A stretch of 52,630 bases of DNA from a virus, in IMG/VR virus record IMGVR_UViG_3300031111_000529, positions 1 to 52,630 of that record. One strand, given 5' to 3'. Made by a program: the position numbers and the translations under genes. Shown here one piece after another: positions 1,781 through 28,107 of this stretch. A model generated the notes under the pieces. That model was not told the DNA's origin. It saw nothing but the letters and a program-made list of their open reading frames with translations, and did not search any database. Positions within the stretch are counted from its first letter, which is position 1. Each line of letters opens with the position of its first letter.

Positions 1781-2111
1781 GGTGACAATCCTTCCGTGGC
1801 GATGACGAAGCTCGCAGAGGGCAGCCGATCGTCGCTCTTCGCCAACGGCCTTCGACCAGCGACCAGTGCGCTGTCCGGCAAGCATTCGGACGGACCAGTC
1901 TCTATTAGTTACTTACCCCGTGGGGGCCAAAAACGTCGGACCGGCGTCCGAGGTGGACGGAGTTGTTGGCCCAGAGAGGGCGGTCGCCAGCTCCCTTCGT
2001 GACCACGCCCATAGGTGCTCCGCAGATTCTCTTGTTGAGAAAACCTGGCAAATGCGGACAATATCGGGTTCAACCTCGCGGGGTGCACGTCCCAGGGCTG
2101 AGGAGTCTTGA
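1781..2111. other. Divergent intergenic control region (331 bp)
   Basis: This stretch separates the leftward xis-int operon from the rightward cargo block. It contains copy A of the conserved bipartite element on the minus strand. No other gene, tRNA or strong hairpin was seen. Small open frames here (for example 1866-2111) are shadows. It should hold promoters for both directions. Confidence 0.6.
1902..1939 (-). promoter_or_regulatory. Bipartite conserved element, copy A
   Basis: Reading on the minus strand it is TCCGACG, 14 variable bases, then GGGGTAAGTAACTAATAG. The match to copies at 13231-13268 and 28070-28107 is exact in both boxes with identical spacing. It points toward the excisionase-like gene, whose ATG is about 120 bp downstream. 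Promoter, operator or leader RNA are all possible. Confidence 0.7.
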
Positions 2112-2291
2112 ATGGCAGTGGGATTTGGCGACATCCTGACGCTGTACGACGTGGAGGAGTCCTCTGAGACTCCCTGGTCCACGCTCCACAAGCTGGCCCA
2201 GGAGAACAAGCCCTGCGGCCAGCGGCGCCGCTTCCACAAGGAAGCCATCGATCCATGGATGAAGGCCGGAGCGAGGAAGGTTCTGAGGTAG
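2112..2291 (+). CDS. Small excisionase-type HTH protein heading the defence block
   Basis: A 59-residue open frame with AGGAG six bases before its ATG. The sequence (ILTLYDVEESSETPWSTLHKLAQENK, then QRRRFHKEAIDPWMK, quoted here in parts) has the outline of the short HTH proteins that often precede helicase or restriction genes. These read roughly LTLKEVAxxL...STLYKLAQ...WRFHKEAIDxWL. The first helix is poorly conserved, so the DNA-binding unit may be degenerate. It ends 4 bp before the helicase-nuclease gene and is very probably co-transcribed with it. A role as a regulator of the block is inferred from the family only. Confidence 0.7.
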   Translation: MAVGFGDILTLYDVEESSETPWSTLHKLAQENKPCGQRRRFHKEAIDPWMKAGARKVLR

Positions 2292-2295
2292 AAGC

Positions 2296-5200
2296 ATGCC
2301 GAGCAGGACAAGCAAGAGCGGCAGTGAACTGTTCATTGTGGACAACAGTGATGCAGACTGGAAGGTCCAGCGTTACCTGCGCGATTGGTGCCAGATCTCG
2401 AAGCAGTTGGATGTCGCTACGGGCTATTTTGAGATCGGTTCTCTATTGTCGCTGGGGGATGCTTGGGAGAGGGTGGATCATGTTCGCATCCTGATGGGCG
2501 ACGAGGTATCTCTTCGCACGAAGCGTGCCTTCGAAGAAGGGCTGGCGCACGCCACCGGAACACTGGATGAGAGCATTGAGGCCGCCAAGGAAACCAATGA
2601 CTTTCTGGTCGGCGTGCCAGCCATCGTTGAAGGGATCCGTAGTGGCAAGATAGCCTGCCGCGTGTACCGTAAGGACAAGTTCCACGCTAAGGCCTACATC
2701 ACGCACGGCCGGCTGGACGTGGTCGGGGCCTCCGCCTTGGTTGGGTCATCAAACTTCACGCACCCCGGGCTGACGGAAAACCTTGAACTCAACGTTCAGA
2801 TCACCGGCAGTCCGGTGAGTGTCCTTCAGGAGTGGTACGAGGAGCACTGGAACAATGCGGAAGACGTGACGCCGGAGATCCTCAGGACTATCGAACGCCA
2901 CACGCGGGAGTATCCCCCCTTCGAGGTCTACGCGCGAAGTCTGCAGGAGTACTTCCGCAGCCACGAGCTGACGGCCGACGAATGGGAACGGCGTGACTCA
3001 AAGATGTACCCGGTCCTGGCCACGTACCAGCGACATGGGTACCACGGCTTGCTGAAGAGAGCCAGGAAGTACGGCGGCGCCTTCCTTTGCGACGGCGTGG
3101 GTTTGGGCAAGACCTACATCGGACTAATGGCCATCGAGCGCCTTGTCCTCCACGAGAAGAAACGCGTCGCGCTCTTCGTCCCGAAGGCCGCACGGGAAGC
3201 CGTCTGGGAAAGCAAGATCAAGAAACACCTGCCGGAGATTCTCGGCGGGTTCCTGAGCTTCCGCATCTACAACCATACGGACCTGCTCCGTACAAACAGG
3301 CAGATTCGCCTCGAACTGGAGCAGATGAAGGAACAGGCGGACGTGGTGATGATCGATGAGGCCCATCACTTCCGCAACACCGGCATTCGCGGTGAGGATG
3401 AAGGTGATCGCAGAAGCCGTTACTGGGAAATGTTCGACATCTGCGATGGCAAGCAGCTCTTCCTGCTTACCGCCACGCCCGTCAACAACCGCCTGACCGA
3501 CTTCCAGCACATGACCGAATTGTTCTCGCGCCGGAAGGCGGAGTACTTCGGCATTGCTCCCCTTGGCATCCACAGCCTGCCCGGCCATGTCCGCACGTTG
3601 GAGAAACAGATTGAGGCCGCTGCCAAAGGACGCGAAGAGGAACTGAGCGAAGGCACGGCAGCCCTTGAGGAAGACAACGCTGAAACAAACCTGGCGGAAG
3701 CCGAGCAGATCCTGCGCGATGACTCACTCTTCGAGGAACTCGTCGTCCAGCGCAGCCGGGCTTACGTCAAGCAGTCCCTCGCCGAAGAGGACGGCCAAGT
3801 GCTTTTCCCGCAGTCCTCACCCCCGAAGGTCGTCCCCTACTCCGTCAAGCAGACCTACGGCAAACTGCTGAAGATGGTGGAGGATGCCTTCCACCAAAAG
3901 AAGCCGCTGTTCTCGCTGGCAATGTACTACCCATGGGACTACTACACCGGCGAACGTGACTTAACCGAGCAAGACGCCGCCATGACCGTTGGCCGCCAGA
4001 AGCAAGTAGCCCGACTGATTCGCACATCCTTCCTCAAGCGATTTGAGAGTTCGGTCTTCGCTTTCAAGGCGTCGTGCGAAACATTGATGAAGAAGCTGAT
4101 CGCCTTCTACCAAGTTCATGCCGAGGATCGCCACGACAAGGATCGCCTGGACAAGTGGCTCGGCCGCAACAAGGACATTACAGGCTTCGACCCGCACAAG
4201 CAGCACACCCTCTTCCCCGACCAGAAGGATCTGGAACTTGAGGAAGAGGACGTTGTGGAGCCGGAGTATTTCGAGAAGGCGTACAAGGATCGGCTCAGCC
4301 CGGATGAGTTCAACATTCCCGGTCTCCTGGCTGATGCCCTAAATGACCTGAACACTATCGCCGATTTCCTCAAGGAACTGGCCCTATTCGAGCCAAAGCA
4401 GGACAAGAAACTCCAGGCGCTCATCCAGCTGCTTCGCGGGCATACGCCGGGGTTGAAAGACGTTGCTCTCCAGCGCCACAAGCTGCTGGTCTTCACCGAG
4501 TTCAAGGACACGGCCCGTTATCTCGCTGAGCAACTCATCGAGGCCGGGTTCGCCGACGTGGTCGAGATCGACTCCCGCACACACTCCAACGGCCGGCTGG
4601 CCGTGATCCGAGCATTTGCTCCTTACTACAACGACTCATCCAGCGCGGACCTGGCCGCCAAAGGCCTGGACGAGACGCGCATCCTGATCTCGACGGATGT
4701 CCTCTCAGAAGGCCTGAACCTCCAGGACGCCACGCGTCTGGTCAACTACGACCTGCACTGGAACCCCGTGCGGCTCATGCAGCGCATTGGCCGAATCGAC
4801 CGGCGGCTAGACCCCGCTGTCGAGGCCCAGATGATCGCTGACCGCCCGGAGATCGAGAAGTTCCGCGGCATGATCCAGTACTACAACTTCCTCCCGCCGG
4901 ACGAATTGAACGAGCTTCTCAGTCTCTACAAGACCGTCACCCACAAGACGCTTCGCATCTCCAAGACCTTCGGCATCGAGAACGGCAAGCTGCTCCGCCC
5001 GGACGATGATTACGATATCCTCCGCGACTTCGTACGCCAGTGCGAGGGAACCGAATCGCAGAGCGAGGGCCTCAGCCTGGAGTTCCAGAAGCTGCTCAAG
5101 GACAACCCCGACATCGAGGCCAGAATCAGCCAATTCCCCAACCGCGTCTTCGCCGGTAAGGAATCGCTCAGTCCCGACACCACAGGCGTCTTCTTCTGCT

Positions 5201-5490
5201 ACGCCCGCCCAGCCAAGGATATAGACAGCGACGACTGGACCATCGAAGCCGGAGACGTGAGGTGGTATCTCTACGACCTTGCCACGGAGAAGATCATCGA
5301 AGACCCATACGAGATCGTCCAGCACATCCGCTCCGGCCCGGACACTCCGCGCGTTTGCCGCATGGGACAAGACGATCTCATCGAGATCCGTAAGAAGATG
5401 GACAAGTACATCAAGAACAGCTACCTCAAAAAGGTCCAGGCTCCAATCGGCGTGAAGCCGGTCCTCCGCACCTGGATGGAGCTAGCCTAG
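2296..5490 (+). CDS. SNF2-type helicase with N-terminal phospholipase-D-like nuclease domain
   Basis: A 1064-residue protein. Residues about 15-200 form a PLD-like domain with a single HxK motif (FHAKAYITH, about residue 130) followed by GSSNFT. A superfamily 2 SNF2-like helicase core follows: Walker A DGVGLGKTY (about 265), DEAH box VVMIDEAHHF (about 350), LLTATPVNN, motif IV LLVFTEFKDTARYL, and motifs V-VI running from STDVLSEGLN to IGRIDRR (about 798-835). Such fusions occur in DISARM-like and other restriction systems, where the helicase translocates on DNA and the PLD domain cuts. It lies 18 bp upstream of the methyltransferase gene in one operon. I infer that the two form a restriction-modification-like defence system. 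No frameshift or lost motif was seen. Confidence 0.92.
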   Translation: MPSRTSKSGSELFIVDNSDADWKVQRYLRDWCQISKQLDVATGYFEIGSLLSLGDAWERVDHVRILMGDEVSLRTKRAFEEGLAHATGTLDESIEAAKETNDFLVGVPAIVEGIRSGKIACRVYRKDKFHAKAYITHGRLDVVGASALVGSSNFTHPGLTENLELNVQITGSPVSVLQEWYEEHWNNAEDVTPEILRTIERHTREYPPFEVYARSLQEYFRSHELTADEWERRDSKMYPVLATYQRHGYHGLLKRARKYGGAFLCDGVGLGKTYIGLMAIERLVLHEKKRVALFVPKAAREAVWESKIKKHLPEILGGFLSFRIYNHTDLLRTNRQIRLELEQMKEQADVVMIDEAHHFRNTGIRGEDEGDRRSRYWEMFDICDGKQLFLLTATPVNNRLTDFQHMTELFSRRKAEYFGIAPLGIHSLPGHVRTLEKQIEAAAKGREEELSEGTAALEEDNAETNLAEAEQILRDDSLFEELVVQRSRAYVKQSLAEEDGQVLFPQSSPPKVVPYSVKQTYGKLLKMVEDAFHQKKPLFSLAMYYPWDYYTGERDLTEQDAAMTVGRQKQVARLIRTSFLKRFESSVFAFKASCETLMKKLIAFYQVHAEDRHDKDRLDKWLGRNKDITGFDPHKQHTLFPDQKDLELEEEDVVEPEYFEKAYKDRLSPDEFNIPGLLADALNDLNTIADFLKELALFEPKQDKKLQALIQLLRGHTPGLKDVALQRHKLLVFTEFKDTARYLAEQLIEAGFADVVEIDSRTHSNGRLAVIRAFAPYYNDSSSADLAAKGLDETRILISTDVLSEGLNLQDATRLVNYDLHWNPVRLMQRIGRIDRRLDPAVEAQMIADRPEIEKFRGMIQYYNFLPPDELNELLSLYKTVTHKTLRISKTFGIENGKLLRPDDDYDILRDFVRQCEGTESQSEGLSLEFQKLLKDNPDIEARISQFPNRVFAGKESLSPDTTGVFFCYARPAKDIDSDDWTIEAGDVRWYLYDLATEKIIEDPYEIVQHIRSGPDTPRVCRMGQDDLIEIRKKMDKYIKNSYLKKVQAPIGVKPVLRTWMELA

Positions 5491-5508
5491 GGACAAGGGG
5501 TGTGATCA

Positions 5509-8500
5509 ATGTCTGAAGAGATTCGAGAGCAGCTGCAGGCCATCAAGACGTTCCCTTCGCTGGTCAAGTACCTCCGAGATGAACTCGACTGGCCCATCGA
5601 AGCCGATGACTTCGATGACCTGACCTTTGACTACGAGCCCGAAGAACTGGGCATCGATGCCAAGACGGCCGCGAAGATCGAGTACGTCAAACAGCTCCGC
5701 CCCCTTGAGGACGGCCAGCCCTGGGGCATCTTCTTCGTCAAGTTCGAGCCCAAGCGGCTCCCCGTCGTCGCCATGCGCCGCATCCTCCGCGGCCTAGCTG
5801 TCAAGAAGCGTGCCTCCGCCAACCGGGCCGACAGGGCTGCCTGGGCCAGGACCGACCTGCTGTTTATCTCAGCCTACGGCGAGAACGAGCAACGTCACAT
5901 CAACTTCGCCCACTTCCACGAGAGTCCACAGAACGGCGACCTGCCCGTCCTGCGCGTTCTTGGCTGGGATGGCTCGGACACCGCCCTGCACATCGACCAC
6001 GTCCACGAGACGCTCACGAGCAGGCTGCGCTGGCCAGATGACGTTCTGGATGCCAATGCTTGGCGGGAGACCTGGGCCGGCGCCTTTACCCTTAAACACC
6101 GCGAGGTCATCACCACCAGCAAGCAGATGGCCATTCGTCTGGCCGACCTTGCCCGGCAGATCCGCAAGAAGATCAACTCCATCCTGGCCATCGAGAAACA
6201 AAGCGGTCCCATGCATAAACTCATGGCTGCCTTCAAGGAAGCCCTCATTCACGACCTGTCAGAAGATGACTTCGCCGATACTTTTGCTCAGACCATTAGC
6301 TATGGGCTTCTGATCGCAGGCATGTCTCGTACCGTCAACGGTGAAGGCACGGCTGTGATCGCGACCGATATTGTCGAGATGGTTCCCAGAACGAACCCCT
6401 TTCTCCGCGAAATGCTTGCGACATTCCTAACCGTCGGGGGGCGTAGAGGCAGGCTGGACTTCGATGAACTGGGCATCAGTGACGTCGTCGATGTTCTTCG
6501 CAGCCCGGATACGCACATGGAGGCCGTCAAACGCGACGTTGGCGACGCAAATGTACGAGAAGATCCTGCCCTCTATTTCTACGAGCTGTTCCTGAAAGAA
6601 TACGACGCTAAGAAGCGCATGCAGCGCGGCGTCTTCTACACCCCCCGGCCGGTCGTATCCTACATCGTCCGCTCCGTCCACGAGCTGCTCCAGACCGAGT
6701 TCGGCTTGGAAGACGGCCTTGCCGACACGACTACCTGGGGGGAGATGGTCGAGAGATGTCCCGACCTCAAGCTGCCGACCATCAAGGTCAAGAAGCCCGA
6801 CTTGCCTGACCTGGTGAATGAGCCCATTGATCCCTCCACCCCGTTTATCCAGATACTCGACCCGGCCACCGGCACCGGCACCTTCCTTGTCGAGGTCATC
6901 GACGTCGTCCACAAGACGATGAAGCAGAAGTGGCTCGATGGTGGCCACTTGCCTCTGCAGATTCCCGAACTGTGGAACGACTACGTGCCCGAGCACCTTC
7001 TGCCACGTCTGTACGGCTACGAACTCATGATGGCCCCATATGCCATCGCCCACATGAAGATCGGCCTGAAGCTCTTCGAGACCGGCTACCGCTTCGGAAC
7101 CGACGAGCGGGCCCGCATCTATCTCACCAACGCACTCGAGCCCGCGCAGGACTTCTCAGACACGTTCGAGCAGATGGCCCCCGCCCTAGCCCACGAAGCC
7201 CAGGCCGTCAACGACGTCAAGCGGCATCATCGCTTCACCGTAGTGATCGGGAATCCACCGTATTCCGCGCTATCCGCCAATCTGACCGAACAGGCGCGTC
7301 GACTCGTGACACGGTTTAAGTACATTGATGGCATCAAACTCCACGAACGCGGCGCGTTGCAGTTGGAGAAGAATCTTCAGGATGACTATGTCAAGTTCTT
7401 GGCCATTACCGAAGATCACTTGAGCGAAAGCGGGATTGGCGCTTGCGGCATCATCTGCAATCACGGTTTCATCGACAATCCCACTCTACGAGGTCTACGC
7501 TGGTCGCTGTTGGACCGTTTCAGCAACCAGTGGGTCCTGGATCTGCACGGCAATGTCAATCGCCGCGAAGTCGCGCCGGACGGCTCGCCCGATCAGAATA
7601 TCTTCGACATCAAGGACGCGGGGGTAGCAATCTTCCTCGCCACACGCGGCCAGCGCACATGTTCTGCGGACGCTGGACTGCGCCAAGCGGACCTCTGGGG
7701 GGGAGACCGTGTGACGCAGAAATACCCATTTCTGTCGACGGAGTCAGCCGCGACAACGCCGTGGGAATCGGTCTCGACCGGCCCCGAGCTGTACCTGTTC
7801 TGCAACATCGGTGGCCCCGACGCGGAAGAATACGCGGCTTGGCCTAAGGCTACGGAGGTCTTTCCGCTGCACAGTATCGGCATGATTACGGCGCGGGACG
7901 CGTACGTCATTGACTTCGAGCCGGGGCTGGTCTTAGAGCGGGCGAAGGCCTTCCGCGGCTCAACTTTGGATGACGAGGCGACGTGCCAGGCGCTGGGCAT
8001 TCCGTTAAAGAAAGGCTGGAACATTGCTCGGGCGCGCCAGCGGATTCAGCAAGTGACGAACCTGGCATCCTGCGTTCACCCGCTGCTGTACCGTCCGTTC
8101 GACATCCGGCCTGTGTTCTATCACGAATCGCTGATCTGGGGCATGGCCTGGCCAGTGATGCAGCACATGCTCGAAGGGCAGAACTTGGCCCTGATCACAT
8201 CGCGGATGACGAAGGGGGAGGACTTCCAGCATGTGTTGGTTAGCCGGGGTCTTTCCGAGGTGATTCTGCTTTCGTCGAAGACCTCCAACAACGCCTTCGT
8301 TTTCCCGTTGTACTTACGCAATCAGGAGGACATGCTTCATGCTGGCGGCACGACGAACATCAGCACGGAGTATACCCGAAGCATCTCGCAGGTCATCGGT
8401 GGCGCTGCACCTCCTCAAGCGATCTTTCAGTACATCTATGCCGTGCTGCACAGTCTAACGTACCGTAAGCGGTACGTGCATCTGCTGAAGCGCGACTTTC

Positions 8501-8991
8501 CGCGCATCCCGGTTCCAGCGACTGCGCATGTCTTCGACGGCCTGGCCGAATTGGGCGGGGAACTGGTTCCTCTGCACCTTCTGGAGTCCCCGCTGCTGGA
8601 CAAGCCGATTACCGCCTACACCGGCCCGGCAAATCCGGAGGTGGAGAAGGTCAGCTACAGCGACGAAACCGTCTGGCTGGACAGGGCCAAGACCCGTGGC
8701 TTTGAGGGCGTGCCGGAAGACGTCTGGAACTTCCACATCGGCGGGTACCAAGTCTGCCACAAGTGGCTCAAGGATCGCCAGGCCAAGGGCGGCAGGAACC
8801 CACGCCCCGGCCGCGTACTCAAGAAAGACGACGTCGAGCACTACCGCAAGATCGTCACGGCCCTCCACCACACCATCCGCCTCATGGGCGAGATCGACGA
8901 AGTCATCGAGCAGCACGGCGGCTGGCCCGACGCCTTCATCACTGACCCAAAGGTCTTGGAAGGCCTGAAATCAAGAGATGGGAAGCCATAG
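5509..8991 (+). CDS. Type ISP-like N6-adenine DNA methyltransferase
   Basis: A 1160-residue protein. The methyltransferase core has GVFYTPRPVVSYIV (about residue 376), motif I DPATGTGTFLVEV (about 450) and motif IV NPPYS (about 582), which is the gamma-type adenine methylase order. The C-terminal third resembles the target-recognition region of type ISP enzymes (HIGGYQVCHKWLKDRQ, then EHYRKIVTALHHTIRLMGEI). Classical type ISP enzymes carry nuclease, helicase and methylase on one chain. Here the nuclease-helicase is the separate upstream protein, so the pair looks like a split version. The methylase would protect host DNA and define the recognition site. It sits in an operon with the helicase. 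Confidence 0.92.
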   Translation: MSEEIREQLQAIKTFPSLVKYLRDELDWPIEADDFDDLTFDYEPEELGIDAKTAAKIEYVKQLRPLEDGQPWGIFFVKFEPKRLPVVAMRRILRGLAVKKRASANRADRAAWARTDLLFISAYGENEQRHINFAHFHESPQNGDLPVLRVLGWDGSDTALHIDHVHETLTSRLRWPDDVLDANAWRETWAGAFTLKHREVITTSKQMAIRLADLARQIRKKINSILAIEKQSGPMHKLMAAFKEALIHDLSEDDFADTFAQTISYGLLIAGMSRTVNGEGTAVIATDIVEMVPRTNPFLREMLATFLTVGGRRGRLDFDELGISDVVDVLRSPDTHMEAVKRDVGDANVREDPALYFYELFLKEYDAKKRMQRGVFYTPRPVVSYIVRSVHELLQTEFGLEDGLADTTTWGEMVERCPDLKLPTIKVKKPDLPDLVNEPIDPSTPFIQILDPATGTGTFLVEVIDVVHKTMKQKWLDGGHLPLQIPELWNDYVPEHLLPRLYGYELMMAPYAIAHMKIGLKLFETGYRFGTDERARIYLTNALEPAQDFSDTFEQMAPALAHEAQAVNDVKRHHRFTVVIGNPPYSALSANLTEQARRLVTRFKYIDGIKLHERGALQLEKNLQDDYVKFLAITEDHLSESGIGACGIICNHGFIDNPTLRGLRWSLLDRFSNQWVLDLHGNVNRREVAPDGSPDQNIFDIKDAGVAIFLATRGQRTCSADAGLRQADLWGGDRVTQKYPFLSTESAATTPWESVSTGPELYLFCNIGGPDAEEYAAWPKATEVFPLHSIGMITARDAYVIDFEPGLVLERAKAFRGSTLDDEATCQALGIPLKKGWNIARARQRIQQVTNLASCVHPLLYRPFDIRPVFYHESLIWGMAWPVMQHMLEGQNLALITSRMTKGEDFQHVLVSRGLSEVILLSSKTSNNAFVFPLYLRNQEDMLHAGGTTNISTEYTRSISQVIGGAAPPQAIFQYIYAVLHSLTYRKRYVHLLKRDFPRIPVPATAHVFDGLAELGGELVPLHLLESPLLDKPITAYTGPANPEVEKVSYSDETVWLDRAKTRGFEGVPEDVWNFHIGGYQVCHKWLKDRQAKGGRNPRPGRVLKKDDVEHYRKIVTALHHTIRLMGEIDEVIEQHGGWPDAFITDPKVLEGLKSRDGKP

Positions 8992-9392: not shown

Positions 9393-10169
9393 ATGGGCCA
9401 CAACCGACTTCATGTAATCGCGCAGACGCGGCTTTGGCGCGAGGTGGTCGGCACGCTGGAAGACCACGACAGTGGGATGGCCGATGTTGCGTCGGCGACG
9501 GCGACGGCCGCGCAGACCGGCCTTCAACGGGCCAAGGGGGACGAAGGGCTTTCGTACGCATTCTGGCTTCTCTGCCAGATTCCGCTGGCCGCCAAGAAGG
9601 CCGACTTCGGCAAGGGCCTTCGCGGGCTGGGGCTGGACGTCCCCGACGCGCCTTCGACGTTCGACGTAGCCGCCGGTTTCACTGAGGCCGTCGAGTCCCA
9701 CCTTCGCCGGACCCGAGGCCGGACAGACATAGGTGAAATCGCCCAACTGGCCGCTGCCGAGTGCCTGACCGCCACGGCGACGCAGGCGCTGAAGGGCCTG
9801 TTCAGTTCAGAGGCCGAGAACGTCCAGAACACCTTCGGGGGGCAGGCGACGCAGAAGAACTTCGGCTTCTTCGCCCAGGACTTCTTCGCACGGTTTGCGA
9901 GCCGCTTCCTGGCATACCACCTCAGCCGGGAGCTTTCGAACCATGTCGGCGAAGGTCGTCGGTTTGCGAACATATCCGAGCATGAGCAGTTCAAGGAAGC
10001 GATGGAGCTTCATTGCCGCCAGACCGCCCGCATTGTGCGGGAGTATGCCGGGACCTGGCATTCGAAGACAAGCTATGAATCGGGAATCACGCCCCGGAAG
10101 GCCAAGCGATTCGTCGCCCATGCGATGACCAAGCTGAGCGATGAGCTTTCGCGAAGGGAGGGGCGATGA
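9393..10169 (+). CDS. Unknown protein coupled to a QatC/QueC-like enzyme
   Basis: A 258-residue, mostly helical, soluble protein with no motif I recognise. The start is sound: AAGGAG lies eight bases before the ATG. The chain begins Met-Gly-His-Asn, so methionine removal would expose an N-terminal glycine. Its stop codon overlaps the next gene's start in ATGA, which implies translational coupling and a shared function. In known QatABCD and type IV CBASS systems, QueC-like enzymes have, to my knowledge, been reported to attach a 7-deazaguanine to the N-terminus of a partner protein. By position this protein is the candidate partner or effector, comparable to QatB, but I see no clear sequence similarity. 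That role is inference. Confidence 0.75.
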   Translation: MGHNRLHVIAQTRLWREVVGTLEDHDSGMADVASATATAAQTGLQRAKGDEGLSYAFWLLCQIPLAAKKADFGKGLRGLGLDVPDAPSTFDVAAGFTEAVESHLRRTRGRTDIGEIAQLAAAECLTATATQALKGLFSSEAENVQNTFGGQATQKNFGFFAQDFFARFASRFLAYHLSRELSNHVGEGRRFANISEHEQFKEAMELHCRQTARIVREYAGTWHSKTSYESGITPRKAKRFVAHAMTKLSDELSRREGR

Positions 10170-11866
10170 AGCACGAACGCCTAATCCTTTGCGGCGGCGC
10201 ATCGGCCCCCCGAGGCGTGCGGGCTGAACGGCTTCACCTGGACCTTTGGGGCCGCGACCCGAACGTATTCCTGAAGATTCGCAATATCACCGACGCCGTG
10301 GCCAAGAACCCCCCGCCAGTCCTGCTGGACTTGCTGGACGTGGCCGCCTACCTGTACGCCGGCGATCAATGCGTTCCGCGCGGGGGGACGGCCAGCTTCG
10401 ACTACGGCGACCGATGGGACCGCCGATTGCGCTACGTGATTCCGCTTCGAAGGCCCAAGGTATGGCAACGCGCCAGAGTCAAAGAAGCCCTGGCCGACGT
10501 TCTCGGCTGGATGACCGATGACCAGTTTGAGTTCCGTTTTCCGCAACTGAAGAATCCCCCGAAGCTGCCGAGTTACCTTGAGTTCGACAAGGACACGGCG
10601 AACCCCACGGGCATTGAGGAAGTCTGCATGTTCTCGGGCGGGTTGGATTCGCTGGCGGGCGCGGTCAAAGAAGCCGTGGTGGACGGCCGGAAAGTTGCGC
10701 TGGTTGGCCACTGCCCCGCCCCGCAACTGCACAAGCGGCAGGACCAGCTTCTTGAGGCCCTGGCCGCAAAGTGCAAGCCGGCCAAGCGGCCGTTCTTTGT
10801 CCAAGTATGGGCAAACAAGGCTTCCAGCTTGACCAAAGACACGTCGCAGCGCATCAGGTCCTTCCTGTTCGCTTCGCTGGGCGCGGTGATTGCCGGCATG
10901 ATGAAGCTGAATCGCGTTCGGTTCTACGAGAACGGCCCGGTTTCGCTGAACCTTCCCCTTTGCGAACAGCTTGTTGGGGCGCGGGTCACGCGGACGACGC
11001 ACCCGAAGACGCTAGCCGGGATGAGTAAGCTGCTCAGCCTGTTGCTAGGAACCGACTTCGCGGTGGACAACCCGTTCCTGTGGAAGACGCGAACCGACAC
11101 TGTGCTTGACCTGAAAGCCGCGAAGGCCGAAGACCTGCTCCCCTACACCGTCAGTTGCAGCCATACGCGGGGAATGACAACGGGCTACCCGCATTGCGGT
11201 TGCTGTTCGCAGTGCATAGACAGGCGCTTCGCCGTCTTGGCCGCCGATTGTGGACAACACGACCCCGCCGATTCCTACCAACTGGACGTGCTCACCGACG
11301 GGCGAGACAAGACCGAAGACCGCACCATGCTGGAACGCTACTTGGGCTTCGCGGCCAAGGTCGAAGCCGTTAAGGACGAGAACACCTTCTTCACTGAGTT
11401 CCCCGAAGCCTATCGCACAATCAACGCCATGGACGGGGACCGGCGGGAATCGGCCAAACAGGTCATCGCACTGTGCAAACGACACGGGGAGCAGGTCAAC
11501 GGCGTTGTCGACCGCGCCTTGGCCGATGCGGCTGCAAGTGGAGCATTGCGGCGCGGGGAACTGCCAGGCAATTGTGCGCTCCTGCTGGTGGGAAGCAGGC
11601 ACTCGACCCCCGCGCCTACGACCGAAGCCACTGGGCAGGATAGTGCATCGCCTGCCGAACAGGATACCGACCGCCCACGCTGCGCGCCAATGACACGAAC
11701 CGAGATAGCCCGCCGGCTGCTAAACCGAACAGACGCCCGCGTTCGTCAAGCTGAAGGCATGATGAAGCGCCTTGGCTTGCGGCAGGAAGACGGCAAGTTC
11801 TACACGATCCTGGTTGACCAACTGGATCCTGCGACGAGGACACGCCTTCTGAAGCCAGCTTCTTGA
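10166..11866 (+). CDS. QatC-like / QueC-family (7-cyano-7-deazaguanine synthase-like) protein
   Basis: A 566-residue protein, more than twice the length of housekeeping QueC. Residues 1-150 form an N-terminal region of the QatC type (LLDVAAYLYAGDQCVPRGG, later WQRARVKEALADVLGWMTDD). A PP-loop ATPase motif SGGLDS occupies residues 157-162. The QueC zinc site is complete: Cys331, then Cys344, Cys346/347 and Cys350 in PHCGCCSQCIDRR. Residues about 500-566 look like a winged-helix or other small C-terminal domain. The gene starts inside the stop of the 258-residue gene. No other queuosine gene, TatD nuclease or KAP ATPase is nearby, so it is not a standard QatABCD operon. I expect ATP-dependent activation of a deazaguanine substrate used in anti-phage defence. 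Confidence 0.88.
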   Translation: MKHERLILCGGASAPRGVRAERLHLDLWGRDPNVFLKIRNITDAVAKNPPPVLLDLLDVAAYLYAGDQCVPRGGTASFDYGDRWDRRLRYVIPLRRPKVWQRARVKEALADVLGWMTDDQFEFRFPQLKNPPKLPSYLEFDKDTANPTGIEEVCMFSGGLDSLAGAVKEAVVDGRKVALVGHCPAPQLHKRQDQLLEALAAKCKPAKRPFFVQVWANKASSLTKDTSQRIRSFLFASLGAVIAGMMKLNRVRFYENGPVSLNLPLCEQLVGARVTRTTHPKTLAGMSKLLSLLLGTDFAVDNPFLWKTRTDTVLDLKAAKAEDLLPYTVSCSHTRGMTTGYPHCGCCSQCIDRRFAVLAADCGQHDPADSYQLDVLTDGRDKTEDRTMLERYLGFAAKVEAVKDENTFFTEFPEAYRTINAMDGDRRESAKQVIALCKRHGEQVNGVVDRALADAAASGALRRGELPGNCALLLVGSRHSTPAPTTEATGQDSASPAEQDTDRPRCAPMTRTEIARRLLNRTDARVRQAEGMMKRLGLRQEDGKFYTILVDQLDPATRTRLLKPAS

Positions 11867-11899
11867 CGCAGTTCCTTACGGCCATTTCCGACCATTTCC

Positions 11900-11931
11900 G
11901 ACCATCCCCGCCAGTTACGACCATCCCCGCC
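11900..11931. repeat. Short direct repeat downstream of the QueC-like gene
   Basis: The 13-mer GACCATCCCCGCC occurs at 11900-11912 and again at 11919-11931. A related GACCATTTCC sits just upstream. It may be a protein-binding site before the 12039 gene. It is short enough to be chance. Confidence 0.35.
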
Positions 11932-12038
11932 ACCACCCCATTCCGGACCTTGTCTGCGCACCATACTGTGGACCGTAGGACGCGGCAGGCAACGGACGCC
12001 TACGCGATTTCAACGGCGACGGACATGGAGCAGTGCTT

Positions 12039-12443
12039 ATGCAGCAAGTCAGGAGAAACGCCACCGACGGGCGTAACGTCGGCGGGGAATCGGCCCCCGC
12101 GCAACTGGCCGAAATGCCCAACGTGCAAGGGAAGGCCGACCTCATCCCTGCAGAGGCGCGGCTGGTAGAGATGATGCAGCGGATCAACTACGGCCGCATC
12201 CTGGGGCTATCGGTGCGCCACGGCGAGCCAGTGATGGACCCGCCGCCGCGCATCTTCCATGAGTACAAGTTTCCCGGTGATAACGGGGCGCGCCCCGAAG
12301 CCACCAAGGTCGACTTTGCCCTCAAGGCCCAGGTCCGCGACCTCTTCGCCCAACTGGAGGCGATGGGTAATGGAGTCGTTCGGTCCATCGAGATTCAGCG
12401 CGGTCTTCCGTTTCGGATGACCGTCGAGGAGGAGGCCGCCTAA
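12039..12443 (+). CDS. Conserved-looking hypothetical early phage protein
   Basis: A 134-residue protein. The ATG at 12039 has GGAG eight bases upstream and is preferred to a GTG two codons earlier. The central part (LVEMMQRINYGRILGL, then PPPRIFHEYKF and ATKVDFALKAQVRDLF) is compact and regularly patterned, as in a real small globular protein. I recognise no catalytic motif and cannot name a function. It is the first gene of the early region and lies about 190 bp before the sigma-like gene, with a strong hairpin between them. Confidence 0.75.
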   Translation: MQQVRRNATDGRNVGGESAPAQLAEMPNVQGKADLIPAEARLVEMMQRINYGRILGLSVRHGEPVMDPPPRIFHEYKFPGDNGARPEATKVDFALKAQVRDLFAQLEAMGNGVVRSIEIQRGLPFRMTVEEEAA

Positions 12444-12518
12444 GCACCGGGGTCCGGCTCCCCACATGACATGTGATCCAAACGAATTGAGTACCTGACA
12501 ACTAACCGGCCACGAAGT

Positions 12519-12598
12519 GGAGGCGTTGTGGGTGCCGCAGAAGCGGCAGTCCTGCAACGCCTCCCGTTCTATAGGTCGCAGCTTCGGTTGGCACCCAC
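12519..12598 (+). promoter_or_regulatory. Structured leader upstream of the sigma-like gene
   Basis: Two perfect 9-bp inverted repeats interlock here. GGAGGCGTT (12519-12527) pairs with AACGCCTCC (12556-12564). GTGGGTGCC (12528-12536) pairs with GGCACCCAC (12590-12598). Within the first loop, GCCGC-AGAA-GCGGC can form a capped hairpin. The order a-b-a'-b' allows either a pseudoknot or two mutually exclusive folds, just before the sigma gene at 12630. There is no U-run, so it is not a classical terminator. Confidence 0.5.
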
Positions 12599-12629
12599 GC
12601 GACGCCTTCCCGGCCAAAGGAAGGCACAA

Positions 12630-13226
12630 ATGGACGCCAACAAGAAGCAGCACGGAATCAATGACTATGCAGAGAATCTCATCCACCACAAGGCACGTCA
12701 GCTCGTCGGCACTGCCGGCTTCACCAGGGACGACGTCGAGGATCTGGAGCAGGAGATGAGGCTTGACCTGCTGCAACGCCTGCCGAACTTCGACCCGAGC
12801 AAGGCGACCTACAACACGTTCGTATCACGTCTCATCGAACGGAAAATCAGCAATCTCATCCGCCATCGAACCCAGGAGCTGCGCGACCACCGGTGTGAGG
12901 ACGGGTCGATACATGATCCGATCCCATCCAGCCATGGCGGCGATACTGAGGTCGAGCGCATCGAGACCGTCACTCAGGACGAGCAGGATTTCCGGTTGGG
13001 CAAACACACCCGCAGCGCTGAGGAGCGTCGCGACCTGAAGCTGGACATCTCGCTGGCCTTGGAAAAGCTTCCGGCAGACCTACGGGAACTGGCGGAAATC
13101 CTGCAGGCCATGTCGATCACCGAAGCGGCCTGCGAATTGGGCATCCCGCGCAGCACGCTCTATGAGCGGATCGCCAAGCTGCGCCGGGCATTAGAGGCCA
13201 TGGGTCTAAACGGCCAGTTTCGATGA
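12630..13226 (+). CDS. Sigma-70-family (ECF-like) RNA polymerase sigma factor
   Basis: A 198-residue protein. AAGGAAGG precedes the ATG at 12630, so I prefer this start to the longer open frame from 12528. Region 2 is seen at about residues 20-80 (DDVEDLEQEMRLDLLQRLP, FDPSKATYNTFVSRLIERKI). Region 4 is a C-terminal HTH (SITEAACELGIPRSTLYERI, then KLRRAL). The two regions are joined by an acidic linker, and there is no region 1 or 3, as in ECF and phage sigma factors. Five bases after its stop begins copy B of the bipartite element. I infer that this factor may direct RNA polymerase to phage promoters, possibly that element. A DNA-binding regulator of sigma-like fold is the alternative. Confidence 0.88.
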   Translation: MDANKKQHGINDYAENLIHHKARQLVGTAGFTRDDVEDLEQEMRLDLLQRLPNFDPSKATYNTFVSRLIERKISNLIRHRTQELRDHRCEDGSIHDPIPSSHGGDTEVERIETVTQDEQDFRLGKHTRSAEERRDLKLDISLALEKLPADLRELAEILQAMSITEAACELGIPRSTLYERIAKLRRALEAMGLNGQFR

Positions 13227-13230
13227 ATCT

Positions 13231-13268
13231 CCGACGTATTTCCCCTGCGCGGGGTAAGTAACTAATAG
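13231..13268 (+). promoter_or_regulatory. Bipartite conserved element, copy B
   Basis: TCCGACG (from 13230), N14, GGGGTAAGTAACTAATAG (13251-13268). It lies directly after the sigma gene and about 170 bp before the Sak4-like gene, in the direction of that operon. CCCC-TGCG-CGGGG can form a small hairpin over the second box. Confidence 0.72.
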
Positions 13269-13323
13269 GCGACCAGGATCGAACTCAAGGAGACAAGAGT
13301 GATCGATGTGTTGTGAGCATACC

Positions 13324-13379
13324 ACGCCCGGGCGGCTTGCGGCGGGTCCACCACACGCGACGGCCGCTCGCCCGGGCGT
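13324..13379 (+). promoter_or_regulatory. Large leader hairpin before the Sak4-like operon
   Basis: ACGCCCGGGCG (13324-13334) and CGCCCGGGCGT (13369-13379) are perfect 11-bp inverted arms. An inner GCGGC/GCCGC stem (13339-13343 with 13363-13367) extends the structure, and TTTCCC follows it. It sits between element B and the gene it would control, so it could act as an attenuator or as the terminator of the sigma transcript. Confidence 0.55.
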
Positions 13380-13435
13380 TTCCCATGCGACGGAACAGTC
13401 AGATAAACGTGAACACCAAGCATAAGGAAGACGCG

Positions 13436-14224
13436 ATGACATTACTGAAACAGATCCGAAGTGGCCCGCGCCACTCACCACCCCGGTTGCTGCTCTACGG
13501 CACCGAGGGCATCGGCAAGTCCACCACAGCATCGCAGGCTCCCAAGGCAATATTCGTCCCTACCGAGGACGGCCTCGACCAGATCGACTGCGATAGCTTC
13601 CCCCTCGCCAGGCGGTTCGACGAGGTCATGTCGGCCGTCTCGGCGCTGTACTCGGAACAGCACGATTACCAAAGCGTGGTGATCGACAGCCTGGATTGGC
13701 TGGAGCGGCTGATTTGGGACGAAGTCTGCCGTGAGTACGGCGTAAAGAGCATCGAGAAGGCCGACGGCGGATACGCCAAGGGTTACACCCATGCCCTGAC
13801 CCAGTGGAGAGAGGTGCTGGATGGCCTGGATGCGCTCCGCAACGAGCGCGGTATGGCCGTCATCCTGCTGGCCCACGCCAAGGTCGAGAAGTTCGAGGAT
13901 CCCGAGTCGGCCGCTTACGACCGCTATTCTCCCCGCCTGCACAAGCATGCGGCCGCCCTGGTGACGGAGTGGTGCGACGGTGTGCTGTTCGCCACGCGGA
14001 AGTTCCGCACCGAAAGCGAGGACGCAGGCTTCAATCGCACACGCTCCATAGCCGTCCCGCTCGGGGCCGACGGTGGTGAGCGCATCCTCCGCACCATCGG
14101 TGGACCGTCGTGCATCGCCAAGAACCGCTACTCCCTGCCGTCCGAGCTGCCCCTGTCGTGGCAGGCCCTCATGGCGGCAATGACCGAAGCCAACACCGAG
14201 ACCCAGGAGAACACCAATGGCTGA
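13436..14224 (+). CDS. Sak4-like RecA-fold ATPase (phage nucleotide-binding protein, AAA_24)
   Basis: A 262-residue P-loop ATPase. Walker A is LLLYGTEGIGKST (about residues 19-31) and a Walker B-like strand is VVIDSLDWLE. A later segment, GMAVILLAHAKVEKF, is typical of RecA-fold phage recombination proteins. AAGGAAG upstream selects the ATG at 13436 over the longer frame. The gene overlaps the DUF669-like ssDNA-binding gene by 8 bp, and that pairing is characteristic of Sak4 annealase modules. It probably promotes strand annealing during phage replication and recombination. Confidence 0.88.
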   Translation: MTLLKQIRSGPRHSPPRLLLYGTEGIGKSTTASQAPKAIFVPTEDGLDQIDCDSFPLARRFDEVMSAVSALYSEQHDYQSVVIDSLDWLERLIWDEVCREYGVKSIEKADGGYAKGYTHALTQWREVLDGLDALRNERGMAVILLAHAKVEKFEDPESAAYDRYSPRLHKHAAALVTEWCDGVLFATRKFRTESEDAGFNRTRSIAVPLGADGGERILRTIGGPSCIAKNRYSLPSELPLSWQALMAAMTEANTETQENTNG

Positions 14225-14669: not shown

Positions 14670-14679
14670 GGGCACAGCC

Positions 14680-22474: not shown

Positions 22475-22488
22475 CCGTATGTAAGAGT

Positions 22489-23173: not shown

Positions 23174-23198
23174 CACCCCGGCCAAGGTGACCGGGGTG
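23174..23198 (-). terminator. GC-rich hairpin downstream of the HARE-HTH operon
   Basis: CACCCCGG (23174-23181) and CCGGGGTG (23191-23198) form a perfect 8-bp stem with a 9-base loop. It lies just past the last gene of the minus-strand operon. There is no T-run, so termination is plausible but not typical. Confidence 0.5.
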
Positions 23199-23221
23199 GA
23201 GGAGGAGGTGTGAGACTGGCG

Positions 23222-23797: not shown

Positions 23798-23836
23798 GAT
23801 GCTTTCCTTTCTGCTGGGCCCGGTTGGCCCGGTGTC

Positions 23837-24115: not shown

Positions 24116-24130
24116 GGTTGCTCTCCTTGC

Positions 24131-24532: not shown

Positions 24533-24544
24533 GATGGTCTCCTT

Positions 24545-24832
24545 TCACCCAGCGAAGTGCTGGATTGCCCTGTAGTAGTCGTCGATCTCGCTGTTGGTGC
24601 CCTCGTAGCCGTCGAGGGCGTGCTGAAGGATCTCGGCCATCGACCATTGGTCGTCGCTGTCGCCGGCCTGGACCTGGTGGGTGCGTTCGCTGCCGGGCAT
24701 GAGCAATTCGACCGTGATGTACTCGTCGCCCGGCTTGCGGCCGATGCGTGCGAAGGCTCGCGGAAGGCCGGGCGTGCCGTCGCCAAGCGTGGTCTTGCTC
24801 TCGCCTGCCAGTTCGATGCTCGTGATTCTCAT
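24545..24832 (-). CDS. Small hypothetical protein
   Basis: A 95-residue protein with AAGGAG before its ATG. The N-terminal half is beta-rich (MRITSIELAGESKTTLG, GDEYITVELLMPGSE) and the C-terminal half helical (MAEILQHALDGYEG). No family recognised. Operon spacing is 12 bp to the next gene. Confidence 0.7.
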   Translation of the reverse strand: MRITSIELAGESKTTLGDGTPGLPRAFARIGRKPGDEYITVELLMPGSERTHQVQAGDSDDQWSMAEILQHALDGYEGTNSEIDDYYRAIQHFAG

Positions 24833-24862
24833 GGTCGTGCTCCTTGTCTCTTGGGTTGGTGG

Positions 24863-25090
24863 CTACTCAGCGTTGAGTGCCAGGATGGTGCTGGGCGTGT
24901 AGCCGCAACGTCGCGCCTCGGCGTTGATGGCCTTGCGGATTCGGCTGCCCGACCGGTTGGCGTAGTAGATCCTCGCCAGTCGCTTCCAGCCGAGCGTCTC
25001 GATCCGCCTGCGTCCATTCCTCATGGTCGCGGTGAGCCATTCGTAGCTTTCTGTGGTGCTGTTCGTCGTCTTCTTCGTGTTCGCCGTCAT
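24863..25090 (-). CDS. Small basic hypothetical protein, first gene of the minus-strand operon
   Basis: A 75-residue basic protein. I choose ATG 25090 because AAAGGA lies just upstream; an ATG at 25111 is also in frame. Residues about 15-65 (YEWLTATMRNGRRRIETLGW, ARIYYANRSGSRIRKAINAE) suggest a compact helical, nucleic-acid-binding protein. No family recognised. It leads the operon opposite the terminase operon, so it is a candidate early regulator. Confidence 0.65.
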   Translation of the reverse strand: MTANTKKTTNSTTESYEWLTATMRNGRRRIETLGWKRLARIYYANRSGSRIRKAINAEARRCGYTPSTILALNAE

Positions 25091-25193
25091 CGTTATTCCT
25101 TTCTTGTTCATGGTTTATGTTCGTTCTTAACAGACACACATTACCTCGATATGGCGACATCACGAAGGGGAATAACATCTTTCTGGCAAAGGA

Positions 25194-25262
25194 GTTACGC
25201 CCGTAACCATCGACAGTGTCGCAGCCTAGGACATGGGCGGAAGATTCTCGGCGGAATCCGCC
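25194..25262. promoter_or_regulatory. Palindromes in the divergent promoter region before the terminase operon
   Basis: GTTACG-CC-CGTAAC (25194-25207) is a perfect 14-bp operator-like palindrome. GGCGGA-A-TCCGCC (25250-25262) is a second one, close to the start of the packaging operon. The region 25091-25287 lies between divergent operons and contains no gene, so repressor or activator sites are expected here. Confidence 0.5.
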
Positions 25263-25287
25263 AAGTTCCTGCATGGAGGACGGCCGC

Positions 25288-25512
25288 TTGAGCGAAACGA
25301 CGCCCAGCCTGACGGCGCTGACGGTGGCCCAGGTGAGCCAGGTGCTATCCGCTGCCGGCGGCCGGCGGATCACCGAGGATATGCTCCGCGCCGACATTGA
25401 CGCCGGATCGCCCGTCAACGCCGACGGCACGCTGAACCTGGTCCACTACGCCGCCTGGCTCGTGCGGGAGGTGAGCCGCGGCGGAGGCAGAGGAGAAGCC
25501 GGTGGCGATTGA
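25288..25512 (+). CDS. Small protein preceding terminase (possible small terminase-like)
   Basis: A 74-residue protein. I favour TTG 25288, eight bases after GGAGG; ATG 25273 is in frame but has no site. The chain (LTVAQVSQVLSAAGGRRITE, then LNLVHYAAWLVREV) resembles the N-terminal part of the next protein (VDLFRYAAWLAWL), suggesting a shared short DNA-binding module. It overlaps the terminase gene by 11 bp. A role as small terminase subunit or accessory DNA-binding protein is inferred from position. Confidence 0.7.
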   Translation: MSETTPSLTALTVAQVSQVLSAAGGRRITEDMLRADIDAGSPVNADGTLNLVHYAAWLVREVSRGGGRGEAGGD

Positions 25513-27766
25513 CCCCCGCAAACTTCGCCCGTCGATGCTGACGCGGATGCTGAACTCCACGCCGTTGGGCGAGGTGGTCAGCGAACGGCAGCTGCGCCGC
25601 CATCGCAACCGGGCCGGCTACCGCATCGGCGACGAGAAGCACGTGGACCTATTCCGCTACGCCGCCTGGCTGGCGTGGCTGCGCCACAATCCCGATCCTG
25701 AAAAGCAGCCCGCCGACTACGAGGCGATGAAGGAGGCCGCCCGCGCCCGCAACGCCGAACTGTCGGCCATCGGCCGTGACATCGGGCCGATCCCCGAGGT
25801 GGTCGACCCGGAGCGGAAGGCGCGGGCAGAGACGGACTTCCGCTTCTTCTGCGAGGCGTACTTCCCGCAGACGTTCTGCCTGCCGTGGTCGGACGACCAC
25901 CTGAAGGTGATCGGTAGGATCGAGCAGGCGGTCCTGCATGGCGGGCTGTTCGCCATGGCGATGCCACGCGGCAGCGGCAAGACATCGCTGGCCGAGACGG
26001 CCTGCATCTGGGCGATGCTTACCGGTGCGCAGGAGTTCGTCTGTCTGATCGGCTCGGACGCCGGTCACGCCCGCAGCATGCTCGAGAGTATCAAGGTCGA
26101 GATGGAGACCAACGATCGGCTTCTGGAGGACTACCCCGAGGCGGTATTCCCCATCCACGCATTGGAGCGGATTCATAACCGGGCCAAGGGCCAGCTCTGT
26201 AACGGGCAACATACCCGGATCGTCTGGACGGCCGACGAGATCGTCCTGCCGACCATCCCGGGCTCGACGGCGTCGGGTGCGATCATCCGCGTGGCCGGCA
26301 TCGAGAGCCGCATTCGCGGCATGAAGTCCAAACGTGCCGATGGCAGGGCGGTTCGGCCCTCGCTGGTGGTGCTGGACGATCCGCAAACTGATGAATCTGC
26401 TCGAAGCGATCCGCAGACGCGCGCCAGGATGGAGACGCTCAACGGCGCGATCCTCAACCTGGCCGGGCCAGGCCAGAAGATCTCCGGCATCATGCCGTGC
26501 ACGGTGATTCGCCCGGGCGACATGGCCGACCATATCCTCGACCGCGATAAGCATCCCACCTGGCAAGGCGAACGCACCAAGCTGGTCTACTCCTTCCCGA
26601 CCAACGAGAAGCTCTGGGAGCGATACGCCCAGATTCGGGCCGACAGCTTCCGCAACGATGGCGACGGCCGCGAGGCCACCGAGTTCTATCGCGCCCGTCG
26701 CGAGGCAATGGACGCCGGGTCTGCCGTTGCTTGGCCCGAAAGGCACAACACCGATGAGCTATCCGCCATCCAGCATGCGATGAACCTGAAGCTCCAGGAT
26801 GAGCGGGCCTTCTGGGCGGAGTATCAGAATGAACCCCTGCCGGAAGATGAGGGCGATACCGACATGCTCACAGCTGATCAAGTTGCAGCGAAGGTCAATG
26901 GCCGGGCCAAGGGCGAGGTGCCCATGGGGGCGAGCCATCTGACGATGTTCATCGATGTGCAGGGCAAGGCCCTGTTCCACGCTGTGGTTGCCTGGGAGGA
27001 CAACTTCACGGGGTACGTCATCGATTATGGGACCTATCCCGACCAACGGCGCGCACACTTTGCGCTTAGGGACATCCAGAAGACGCTTGGCAGGGCCGCG
27101 CCCGGGTCTGGGCTGGAGGGCTCGATCTACGCTGGGCTGGAGAAGCTTACCGGCCAGTATCTGGCCCGAAGGTGGCGGCGCGATGACGGCGCCGAGTTGC
27201 GGATCGAACGGTGCCTGATCGACGCCAACTGGGGCCAGAGCACCGACGTGGTCTACCAGTTCTGCCGGCAGAGCGCCCATTCGGCTATCGTGATGCCCAG
27301 CCACGGCCGCTTCGTTGGGGCGTCGAGCGTGCCGTTTTCCGAGTACAAGCGTAAGCGCGGGGAGCGCGTCGGCCACCACTGGCGGATTCCCAACACCCAG
27401 GTCCGACGACAGGTCCGACACGTCCTGATCGACACCAATTACTGGAAGAGCTTTATCCACGCCCGTCTGGCCGTGGCGATGGGCGACCCCGGATGCCTGT
27501 CGCTGTTGGGCCGCGATGCAAACAGACACCAACTCCTGGCCGAGCACGTCGCCGCCGAGTATCGGGTCCGGACTGAGGCGAGGGGAAGGGTCGTCGATGA
27601 GTGGAAGCTACGGGCAGGCAGCCCGGACAACCACTGGCTGGACTGTCTGGTCGGCTGCGCGGTAGCGGCCTCCATCCAGGGCGCCGTGCTGTTTGGGACG
27701 GAGGCGTCTGGGCGCACGCCGCGCAAGCCCATGAAGCTTTCCGAACTCCAAAGGGGGCGACGGTAG
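25502..27766 (+). CDS. terL: Phage terminase large subunit
   Basis: A 754-residue DNA-packaging motor starting at GTG 25502. The ATPase has Walker A AMPRGSGKTS (about residues 153-161) and Walker B PSLVVLDDPQTDE (about 286-298). A long C-terminal half should contain the RNase H-like nuclease (MTMFIDVQGKALFHAVVAWE begins it). The N-terminal ~65 residues are an HTH-like extension (SERQLRRHRNRAGYRI) that may supply a small-subunit function. The length exceeds the usual 400-600 residues and fits the GpA-like class. It cuts concatemers and pumps DNA through the portal encoded about 600 bp downstream. Confidence 0.93.
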   Translation: MAIDPRKLRPSMLTRMLNSTPLGEVVSERQLRRHRNRAGYRIGDEKHVDLFRYAAWLAWLRHNPDPEKQPADYEAMKEAARARNAELSAIGRDIGPIPEVVDPERKARAETDFRFFCEAYFPQTFCLPWSDDHLKVIGRIEQAVLHGGLFAMAMPRGSGKTSLAETACIWAMLTGAQEFVCLIGSDAGHARSMLESIKVEMETNDRLLEDYPEAVFPIHALERIHNRAKGQLCNGQHTRIVWTADEIVLPTIPGSTASGAIIRVAGIESRIRGMKSKRADGRAVRPSLVVLDDPQTDESARSDPQTRARMETLNGAILNLAGPGQKISGIMPCTVIRPGDMADHILDRDKHPTWQGERTKLVYSFPTNEKLWERYAQIRADSFRNDGDGREATEFYRARREAMDAGSAVAWPERHNTDELSAIQHAMNLKLQDERAFWAEYQNEPLPEDEGDTDMLTADQVAAKVNGRAKGEVPMGASHLTMFIDVQGKALFHAVVAWEDNFTGYVIDYGTYPDQRRAHFALRDIQKTLGRAAPGSGLEGSIYAGLEKLTGQYLARRWRRDDGAELRIERCLIDANWGQSTDVVYQFCRQSAHSAIVMPSHGRFVGASSVPFSEYKRKRGERVGHHWRIPNTQVRRQVRHVLIDTNYWKSFIHARLAVAMGDPGCLSLLGRDANRHQLLAEHVAAEYRVRTEARGRVVDEWKLRAGSPDNHWLDCLVGCAVAASIQGAVLFGTEASGRTPRKPMKLSELQRGRR

Positions 27767-27949
27767 ATGGCCGACCGAACTGAAACACGCAAGCCCGCTG
27801 AGAAACGCGGCCTCGAATGCCCCCGCTGCGGGTGCGGGCATTTCCGGGTGCTCTATACTCGCCCCGCCTGGGGCGGGCGGCTACTGCGTCGGCGCGAGTG
27901 CCGTTACTGTGGCCGGCGGATGACGACCTACGAACAAACGGCGCCGTAA
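27767..27949 (+). CDS. Small zinc-ribbon protein
   Basis: A 60-residue protein whose ATG directly follows the terminase stop. Two CxxC knuckles are visible (CPRCGC and CRYCGRR, about 33 residues apart), forming a zinc ribbon like that at the N-terminus of NrdR. The rest is basic. It probably binds nucleic acid. Similar micro-proteins follow terminase genes in related phages, but no role is known to me. Confidence 0.8.
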   Translation: MADRTETRKPAEKRGLECPRCGCGHFRVLYTRPAWGGRLLRRRECRYCGRRMTTYEQTAP

Positions 27950-28069
27950 TGTGGAGACGTCTGACTTGAGACCATGTGCCGAAAGGGCTAAGCCCATTAG
28001 CCCATACGGCCAGTAACGTCAAGTTTAAGCCCCTCCAAGTTCTACATGCGTAACGATTTCCCACCTCTT

Positions 28070-28107
28070 CCGACGGTTTCCGCTTCGACGGGGTAAGTAA
28101 CTAATAG
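28070..28107 (+). promoter_or_regulatory. Bipartite conserved element, copy C
   Basis: TCCGACG (from 28069), N14, GGGGTAAGTAACTAATAG (28090-28107). It lies in a 192-bp gap that otherwise contains no gene, 34 bp before the first head gene, in the direction of the structural operon. Confidence 0.72.

Follow-up and report, generated by a model that had tools for sequence, protein, structure and literature searches.

We find that a 52.6-kb virus record, IMG/VR record IMGVR_UViG_3300031111_000529 (52,630 nucleotides, the whole stretch being called the window below), carries three exact copies of a bipartite DNA element, TCCGACG-N14-GGGGTAAGTAACTAATAG, each of which points into a phage gene group, and that the same phage encodes a sigma factor whose gene ends just ahead of one copy. 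We propose that the three copies very probably form one promoter class, served by host RNA polymerase with the sigma factor that the phage itself encodes, which resembles the extracytoplasmic function (ECF) group. The window represents a temperate tailed phage with tyrosine integrase, excisionase, replication, terminase and portal genes. Because its nearest relatives among named genomes are prophages of Phycisphaerales metagenome genomes, its host is probably a planctomycete.

A search of the window with the 39-base pattern bore out the three exact copies first reported from a sequence-only reading of this DNA; 100 shuffles gave an expectation of 0 copies, and no fourth copy with 3 or fewer mismatches was found in the window. 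The ranges given in that reading were one base short. The corrected positions, with the copies labelled A, B and C, are given here together with the sigma gene and the genes that the copies face:

1902-1940, minus strand: element A, candidate promoter of the excision/integration module; TCCGACG -35 box at 1940-1934
13230-13268, plus strand: element B, candidate promoter of the recombination/replication operon; -35 box at 13230-13236, GTAAGT at 13254-13259
28069-28107, plus strand: element C, candidate promoter of the head gene group; -35 box at 28069-28075, GTAAGT at 28093-28098
12630-13226, plus strand: sigma-70 family (ECF-like) sigma factor, 198 residues (TIGR02937, Sigma70_r2, phrog_1740, Foldseek)
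68-1426, minus strand: tyrosine integrase (PF00589, phrog_1)
1493-1780, minus strand: excisionase-like helix-turn-helix gene (HTH_17, phrog_66 excisionase, TIGR01764 above cut-off)
13313-14224 (longest open reading frame; likely start near 13436), plus strand: Sak4-like ATPase (AAA_24, phrog_124)
28142-28339, plus strand: small gpW-like gene, the first behind element C, with Shine-Dalgarno sequence GGGAG
28194-29831 (longest open reading frame), plus strand: portal protein (PF05136, phrog_21)

The element is non-palindromic and strictly directional, and it has the geometry of -35 and -10 boxes with invariant spacing: 17 bases separate CCGACG from GTAAGT, as had been stated, and GTAAGT lies inside the -10 block (at 1916-1911 in element A). 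The spacer sequence differs among A, B and C, and each copy points into a gene group. We rejected a coding explanation of the repeats, in which they would encode LVTYP on the reverse strand, since the DNA positions and the spacing are kept, the spacer varies and the elements lie at the starts of gene groups, in line with the earlier preference for nucleotide over protein conservation. The gene groups are also those first described, namely the excisionase-like gene and tyrosine integrase behind A, the Sak4 recombination/replication operon behind B, and the gpW-like gene followed by the portal and head genes behind C. The longest open frame of the excisionase-like gene spans 1493-1885, with a likely ATG start near 1780. 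The Sak4-like ATPase is the first full-size gene of the replication operon (Sak4/DUF669/RusA/helicase/Prim-Pol), and the packaging and head genes include a GpA-type terminase, the portal and a head protease. The gpW-like gene has no Pfam match and is named for its size and position; its orthologues keep their place ahead of the portal. A search for an extra conserved block upstream of element C found nothing in the window. Right behind element B, at 13302-13319, we also observe an open frame of five codons that has a good ribosome-binding site (GTGATCGATGTGTTGTGA) and whose start is conserved in L021, and a GC-rich hairpin lies between this frame and the Sak4 gene.

Element B begins three bases 3' of the sigma stop codon, which ends at 13226, and not five bases behind it as originally read. 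The sigma protein scores 57.4 bits against TIGR02937, the sigma70-ECF superfamily model (cut-off 42.9), over residues 15-188; Sigma70_r2 is above the Pfam cut-off and Sigma70_r4_2 below it. At 197-198 residues, the sigma protein has the architecture of ECF (group IV) factors, in which regions 2 and 4 are present and regions 1.1 and 3 are missing. In a Foldseek search with a structure model (pLDDT, the predicted local distance difference test score, of 71), the top matches are M. tuberculosis sigma-H and other ECF sigma factors. None of the NCBIfam subfamily models reached its cut-off with the sigma protein, and no named ECF subfamily fits. The nearest match in a named phage (tblastn) is the sigma-70 domain protein of Wolbachia phage WO, at 23-27% identity. 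The sigma protein most likely starts at ATG 12630. GTG 12528, the start of the longest open reading frame, was rejected, as the region before the ATG is conserved as DNA in relatives but in shifted reading frames.

Fixed places and phage-specific boxes in related phages

The elements keep their places in related phages. Behind the sigma stop codon of about 30 homologues stands an element of the general form (t)CCGACA-N17-GTAnGTAAC, even where the next gene is unrelated. Element C lies just ahead of the gpW-like gene and portal in G001, G002, G011, G094, G003 and G006. An A-type element precedes the integration module in G044, which has an integrase similar to that of the window, and in G001, G002, G094, G037, G064, G077, G375 and G080, where a large serine recombinase follows it in place of the excisionase and tyrosine integrase of the window (recombinase type in the relatives was judged from the sequences, not by family search). 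Given its presence before two unrelated recombinase types, the element appears to have stayed while the recombinase was replaced. The spacer of the A element has TTTCGAACT or a near form in several phages. Extra copies occur in G002, before the gene ahead of a ParB-methylase, and in G080, before a Prim-Pol-like gene.

We scanned whole genomes and viral contigs for copies elsewhere. A loose form of the pattern matches three times in G001 (3.6 Mb) and four times in G002 (4.7 Mb), both Phycisphaerales genomes, and all of these matches are on prophage contigs at phage gene groups (a reversed control pattern gave 2 and 1 matches). A generalised pattern found 37 stretches in the 2.9 million viral contigs of IMG/VR: 16 lie 70-72 bases and 2 lie 672 bases before gpW, 13 follow a sigma gene directly, and 2 precede Sak4 at the edge of a contig; of the 4 found in other places, two are the same sequence near a terminase of this phage family. 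The sigma or gpW position accounts for 33 of the 37, all 33 oriented into the gene group, although some of the contigs are near-identical and the 33 matches are not 33 independent events. An earlier scan of viral contigs with a 15-base pattern gave mostly AT-rich chance matches, and only 6 of 58 fetched stretches had the full element. Copies scattered without orientation to genes, which the sequence-only reading had named as the sign of a dispersed repeat, are thus not what these scans show. Two of the traits expected of a phage sigma regulon, several oriented copies that are absent from the rest of the host genome and a sigma factor encoded by the phage, are both seen here.

Each phage has its own version of the -35 and -10 boxes, common to its copies and differing between phages:

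Window: CCGACG/GTAAGTAACtaatag; proposed partner of its sigma, CCGACG/GTAAGTAAC
G001: CCGCCA/GTAAGTAA
G002: CCGTCA/GTAnGTATC
G094: GTAATTGA(C/T) at all its sites; proposed partner of its sigma, GTAATTGAC
G037: GTATGAAAC at all its sites
G375: CGnGCAA/GTAGGTATCCAGTAG; proposed partner of its sigma, GTAGGTATC

Among seven phages with at least two sites each, box identity is 0.87 within a phage versus 0.65 between phages (0 of 5000 permutations); the within-phage value is biased because the search for sites relied in part on similarity to element B, a bias to which the C sites, located by synteny, and the swap test described next are less exposed. Spacer identity is 0.55 at the same place in different phages versus 0.43 at different places. 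The boxes therefore follow the phage and the spacers follow the place, as a phage-specific trans-acting reader would predict, and the co-variation of the boxes within each phage points to such a reader. In the swap test, in which the post-sigma element served as the query, a phage's own B element gives the best second site in its own genome. In 9 of 20 phages this site scores above every one of 300 shuffled elements, and in three more it comes near that (several of the contigs are partial).

Proposed mechanism and rival explanations

In the mechanism we propose, TCCGACG would be a -35 box contacted by sigma region 4, and GGGGTAAGTAACTAATAG would hold a -10 box contacted by sigma region 2, the 14-base spacer with its GGG setting the two boxes 17 bases apart. 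Transcription would start a few bases past each element once the sigma protein is made; at B and C this would leave some 30-40 bases between the transcript start and a start codon that has a ribosome-binding site. We read the elements as promoters because of their 17-base spacing, their direction and, at B and C, the short distance to such a start codon, and we take the phage sigma factor as the most likely reader, since its gene constantly accompanies element B and its family is the right one. Since no copy lies upstream of the sigma gene, sigma would have to be made first from another promoter, its translation probably gated by a two-state RNA leader, and would then act on A, B and C as one class. 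Excision/integration (A), the recombination/replication operon (B) and the packaging and head genes (C) would be switched on jointly, so that departure from the host chromosome, replication of the viral DNA and assembly of new particles are probably coordinated by a single viral protein. The initial suggestion, a family of promoters particular to the phage and recognized by the sigma factor encoded next to one of them, is the reading best supported by the fixed, oriented places and the box co-variation in each phage.

Several observations weigh against this proposal. G386, G101 and G074 have the sigma gene and element B without a recognisable element C upstream of gpW, and G386, G101, G353 and G038 have no second copy of any kind in the sequence available. 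Confidence in the sigma structure model is middling (pLDDT 71). In a Mantel test over all phages, the correlation of sigma divergence is r = 0.59 with the boxes and r = 0.57 with the spacer; because the two correlate alike, sigma specificity is not separable from shared descent in this test, and we do not use it as evidence of specificity.

The elements might instead be bound by a different DNA-binding protein of the phage, for instance a repressor or antirepressor, as its operators or activator sites, and overlap ordinary promoters for a host sigma factor. A phage-specific repressor would likewise produce box co-variation specific to each phage, and the TTTCGAACT or near form in the A spacers of several phages could be its operator. 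We consider this explanation unlikely, as the element is non-palindromic, strictly directional and of -35/-10 geometry with invariant spacing, it keeps a fixed distance to the first gene, its most constant neighbour is the sigma gene, and no sigma-70-like promoter was found in 11800-14000 of the window. Alternatively, the elements could be promoters for an alternative sigma factor of the host, with another role for the phage sigma. Planctomycetota hosts encode many ECF sigma factors, which counts in favor of this idea. There is also the proven precedent of an int promoter read by the host, that of Staphylococcus aureus sigma-H at prophage int (PMC2869324). Yet phages of one host class differ in their box versions, and host genomes carry the pattern only in prophages, which makes a host reader very unlikely in our judgement. 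We give almost no credence to a dispersed repeat that lacks a regulatory role or to a signal at the DNA level (for recombination, replication or packaging); exact repetition inside one genome would fit either, but the spacers differ, the copies always point into a gene group, and their places are kept when neighbour genes are replaced.

The sigma leader RNA and other genes of the window

The phage sigma factor, our preferred reader of the elements, may itself be controlled at the RNA level. The region upstream of its gene contains the following features:

12033-12443, plus strand: small conserved gene upstream of the RNA leader, with homologues ahead of sigma in most relatives
12495-12632, plus strand: structured RNA leader between gene 12033-12443 and sigma, covering the ATG at 12630
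12519-12564, plus strand: proximal hairpin, GGAGGCGTTGTGGG-TGCCGC/GCGGCA-CCTGCAACGCCTCC
12590-12598, plus strand: distal strand GGCACCCAC, whose possible pairing with 12528-12536 (GTGGGTGCC) competes with the proximal hairpin
12604-12625, plus strand: hairpin with the sigma ribosome-binding sequence, GCCTTCC...GGAAGGC, from the sequence and predicted folds (the alignment is weak here)

The leader has 91% mean column identity across phages whose sigma proteins are about 50% identical. Its proximal hairpin has 19 pairs, with 96.1% of cells paired and 6 pairs changed on both sides (0 of 500 shuffles), and its distal helix has 9 pairs, with 97.8% paired and 5 pairs changed on both sides (0 of 500 shuffles). 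The two helices would be mutually exclusive, as they share part of a 5' strand. The leader thus has a conserved secondary structure with covariation support, as a cis-regulatory RNA is expected to have. In the window, the distal helix can be imposed in folding at a cost of 5 kcal/mol, and imposing it exposes part of the ribosome-binding sequence in many, not all, members. A covariance model scores the window leader at 142 bits, the window being part of its training set, and also finds the leader before sigma genes that were left out of its building. A search of 11800-13700 against Rfam up to E = 1 gave no relevant match, only a chance match. We regard the leader as a candidate translational switch of sigma.

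Weaker matches to the covariance model (E 0.0001 to 0.02) fall in the integration-operon leader just behind the A-type element of G094, G064, G037 and G002; the weaker copies of the motif in these four relatives are at L149:16535-16669 (minus strand), L160:2432-2601 (plus), L153:4684-4820 (minus) and L091:7844-7908 (plus). In G011 a second sigma-like gene (L095:3123-3831, minus strand), 26% identical to the first, lies upstream of it, and a truncated copy of the leader RNA stands before this second gene too. Tentatively, and at somewhat less than even odds, we suggest that in this temperate, widespread family of Planctomycetota phages the lysis-lysogeny decision passes through a sigma factor gated by a new two-state RNA switch, and that, with the motif also in the integration-operon leader behind a sigma-dependent promoter, one signal would act on sigma and on one of its targets.

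The small gene at 12033-12443 has no Pfam match and belongs to no known family; it is possibly an anti-sigma factor. Between the integration module and the sigma region (2296-8991), a PLD-nuclease/SNF2 helicase adjoins a type ISP restriction-methylation enzyme, probably as defence cargo. At 9393-11866, a protein resembling QueC/QatC (E = 5e-52 to the QatC model) and its uncharacterised partner of 258 residues are possibly a second such cargo, the other Qat genes being absent. Lastly, an open frame of 2275 residues occupies 44117-50944 on the minus strand, opposite to the late genes.

Relation to known sigma regulons

Sigma regulons of phages have been described for a small number of cultured phages, most of them lytic. 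The present family of sigma-promoter pairs, which have apparently changed together, emerges from sequence alone, and in a phylum where few phages have been studied. Swapping such natural pairs could make sigma-promoter specificity testable and supply orthogonal transcription parts, and the system offers an entry into how Planctomycetota prophages leave dormancy and begin to replicate. Independently of this, the leader RNA can be tested as a candidate for a new regulatory RNA. We found nothing on this system in the open literature on phage sigma factors in Planctomycetota, a search that left most subscription papers and preprints outside.

Salmonella phage 7-11 encodes a divergent sigma factor, SaPh711_gp47, that redirects host RNA polymerase to bipartite late promoters, GTAAtg-16-aCTA (PMC8948821). 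As in our proposal, a phage-encoded sigma factor goes with several bipartite promoters before phage gene groups, and the promoter has changed with sigma between related phages. Phage 7-11, however, belongs to a lytic group, whereas the phages described here integrate and have a candidate promoter before the excision/integration module as well. Their boxes differ too (CCGACG-17-GTAAGT in the window), and one candidate promoter lies directly behind the sigma gene. A stem-loop near gene 47 has been reported for phage 7-11, and no conserved two-state leader like the one here (PMC8948821). The gp36 sigma factor of phiEco32 likewise pairs a phage sigma with phage promoters, both middle and late, but these have a single element, tAATGTAtA, and no -35 box (PMC8948821); that absence is attributed to a lack of region 4 homology, whereas the elements described here keep both boxes and the sigma factor has region 4. 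In Bacillota phages, the sigma cascade of Bacillus phage SPO1 and sporulation-like phage sigma factors also steer transcription with phage-encoded sigmas (PMC9429907), a likeness we draw from descriptions, not sequence.

Among temperate phages, the S. aureus case described above is similar in that the prophage integrase gene is transcribed with the help of an alternative sigma factor at a conserved block upstream of it, there a 40-bp promoter (PMC2869324). It differs in that the sigma factor belongs to the host; here it is the phage's, and it would serve replication and head genes too. Wolbachia phage WO is likewise temperate, but its sigma-70 domain protein, compared at the protein level only, is very distant. 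Regulons of phage sigma factors are therefore a known kind of system, represented by phage 7-11 and phiEco32. What is new is the temperate Planctomycetota family, the inclusion of the integration module, the family-wide co-variation of the boxes and the leader RNA.
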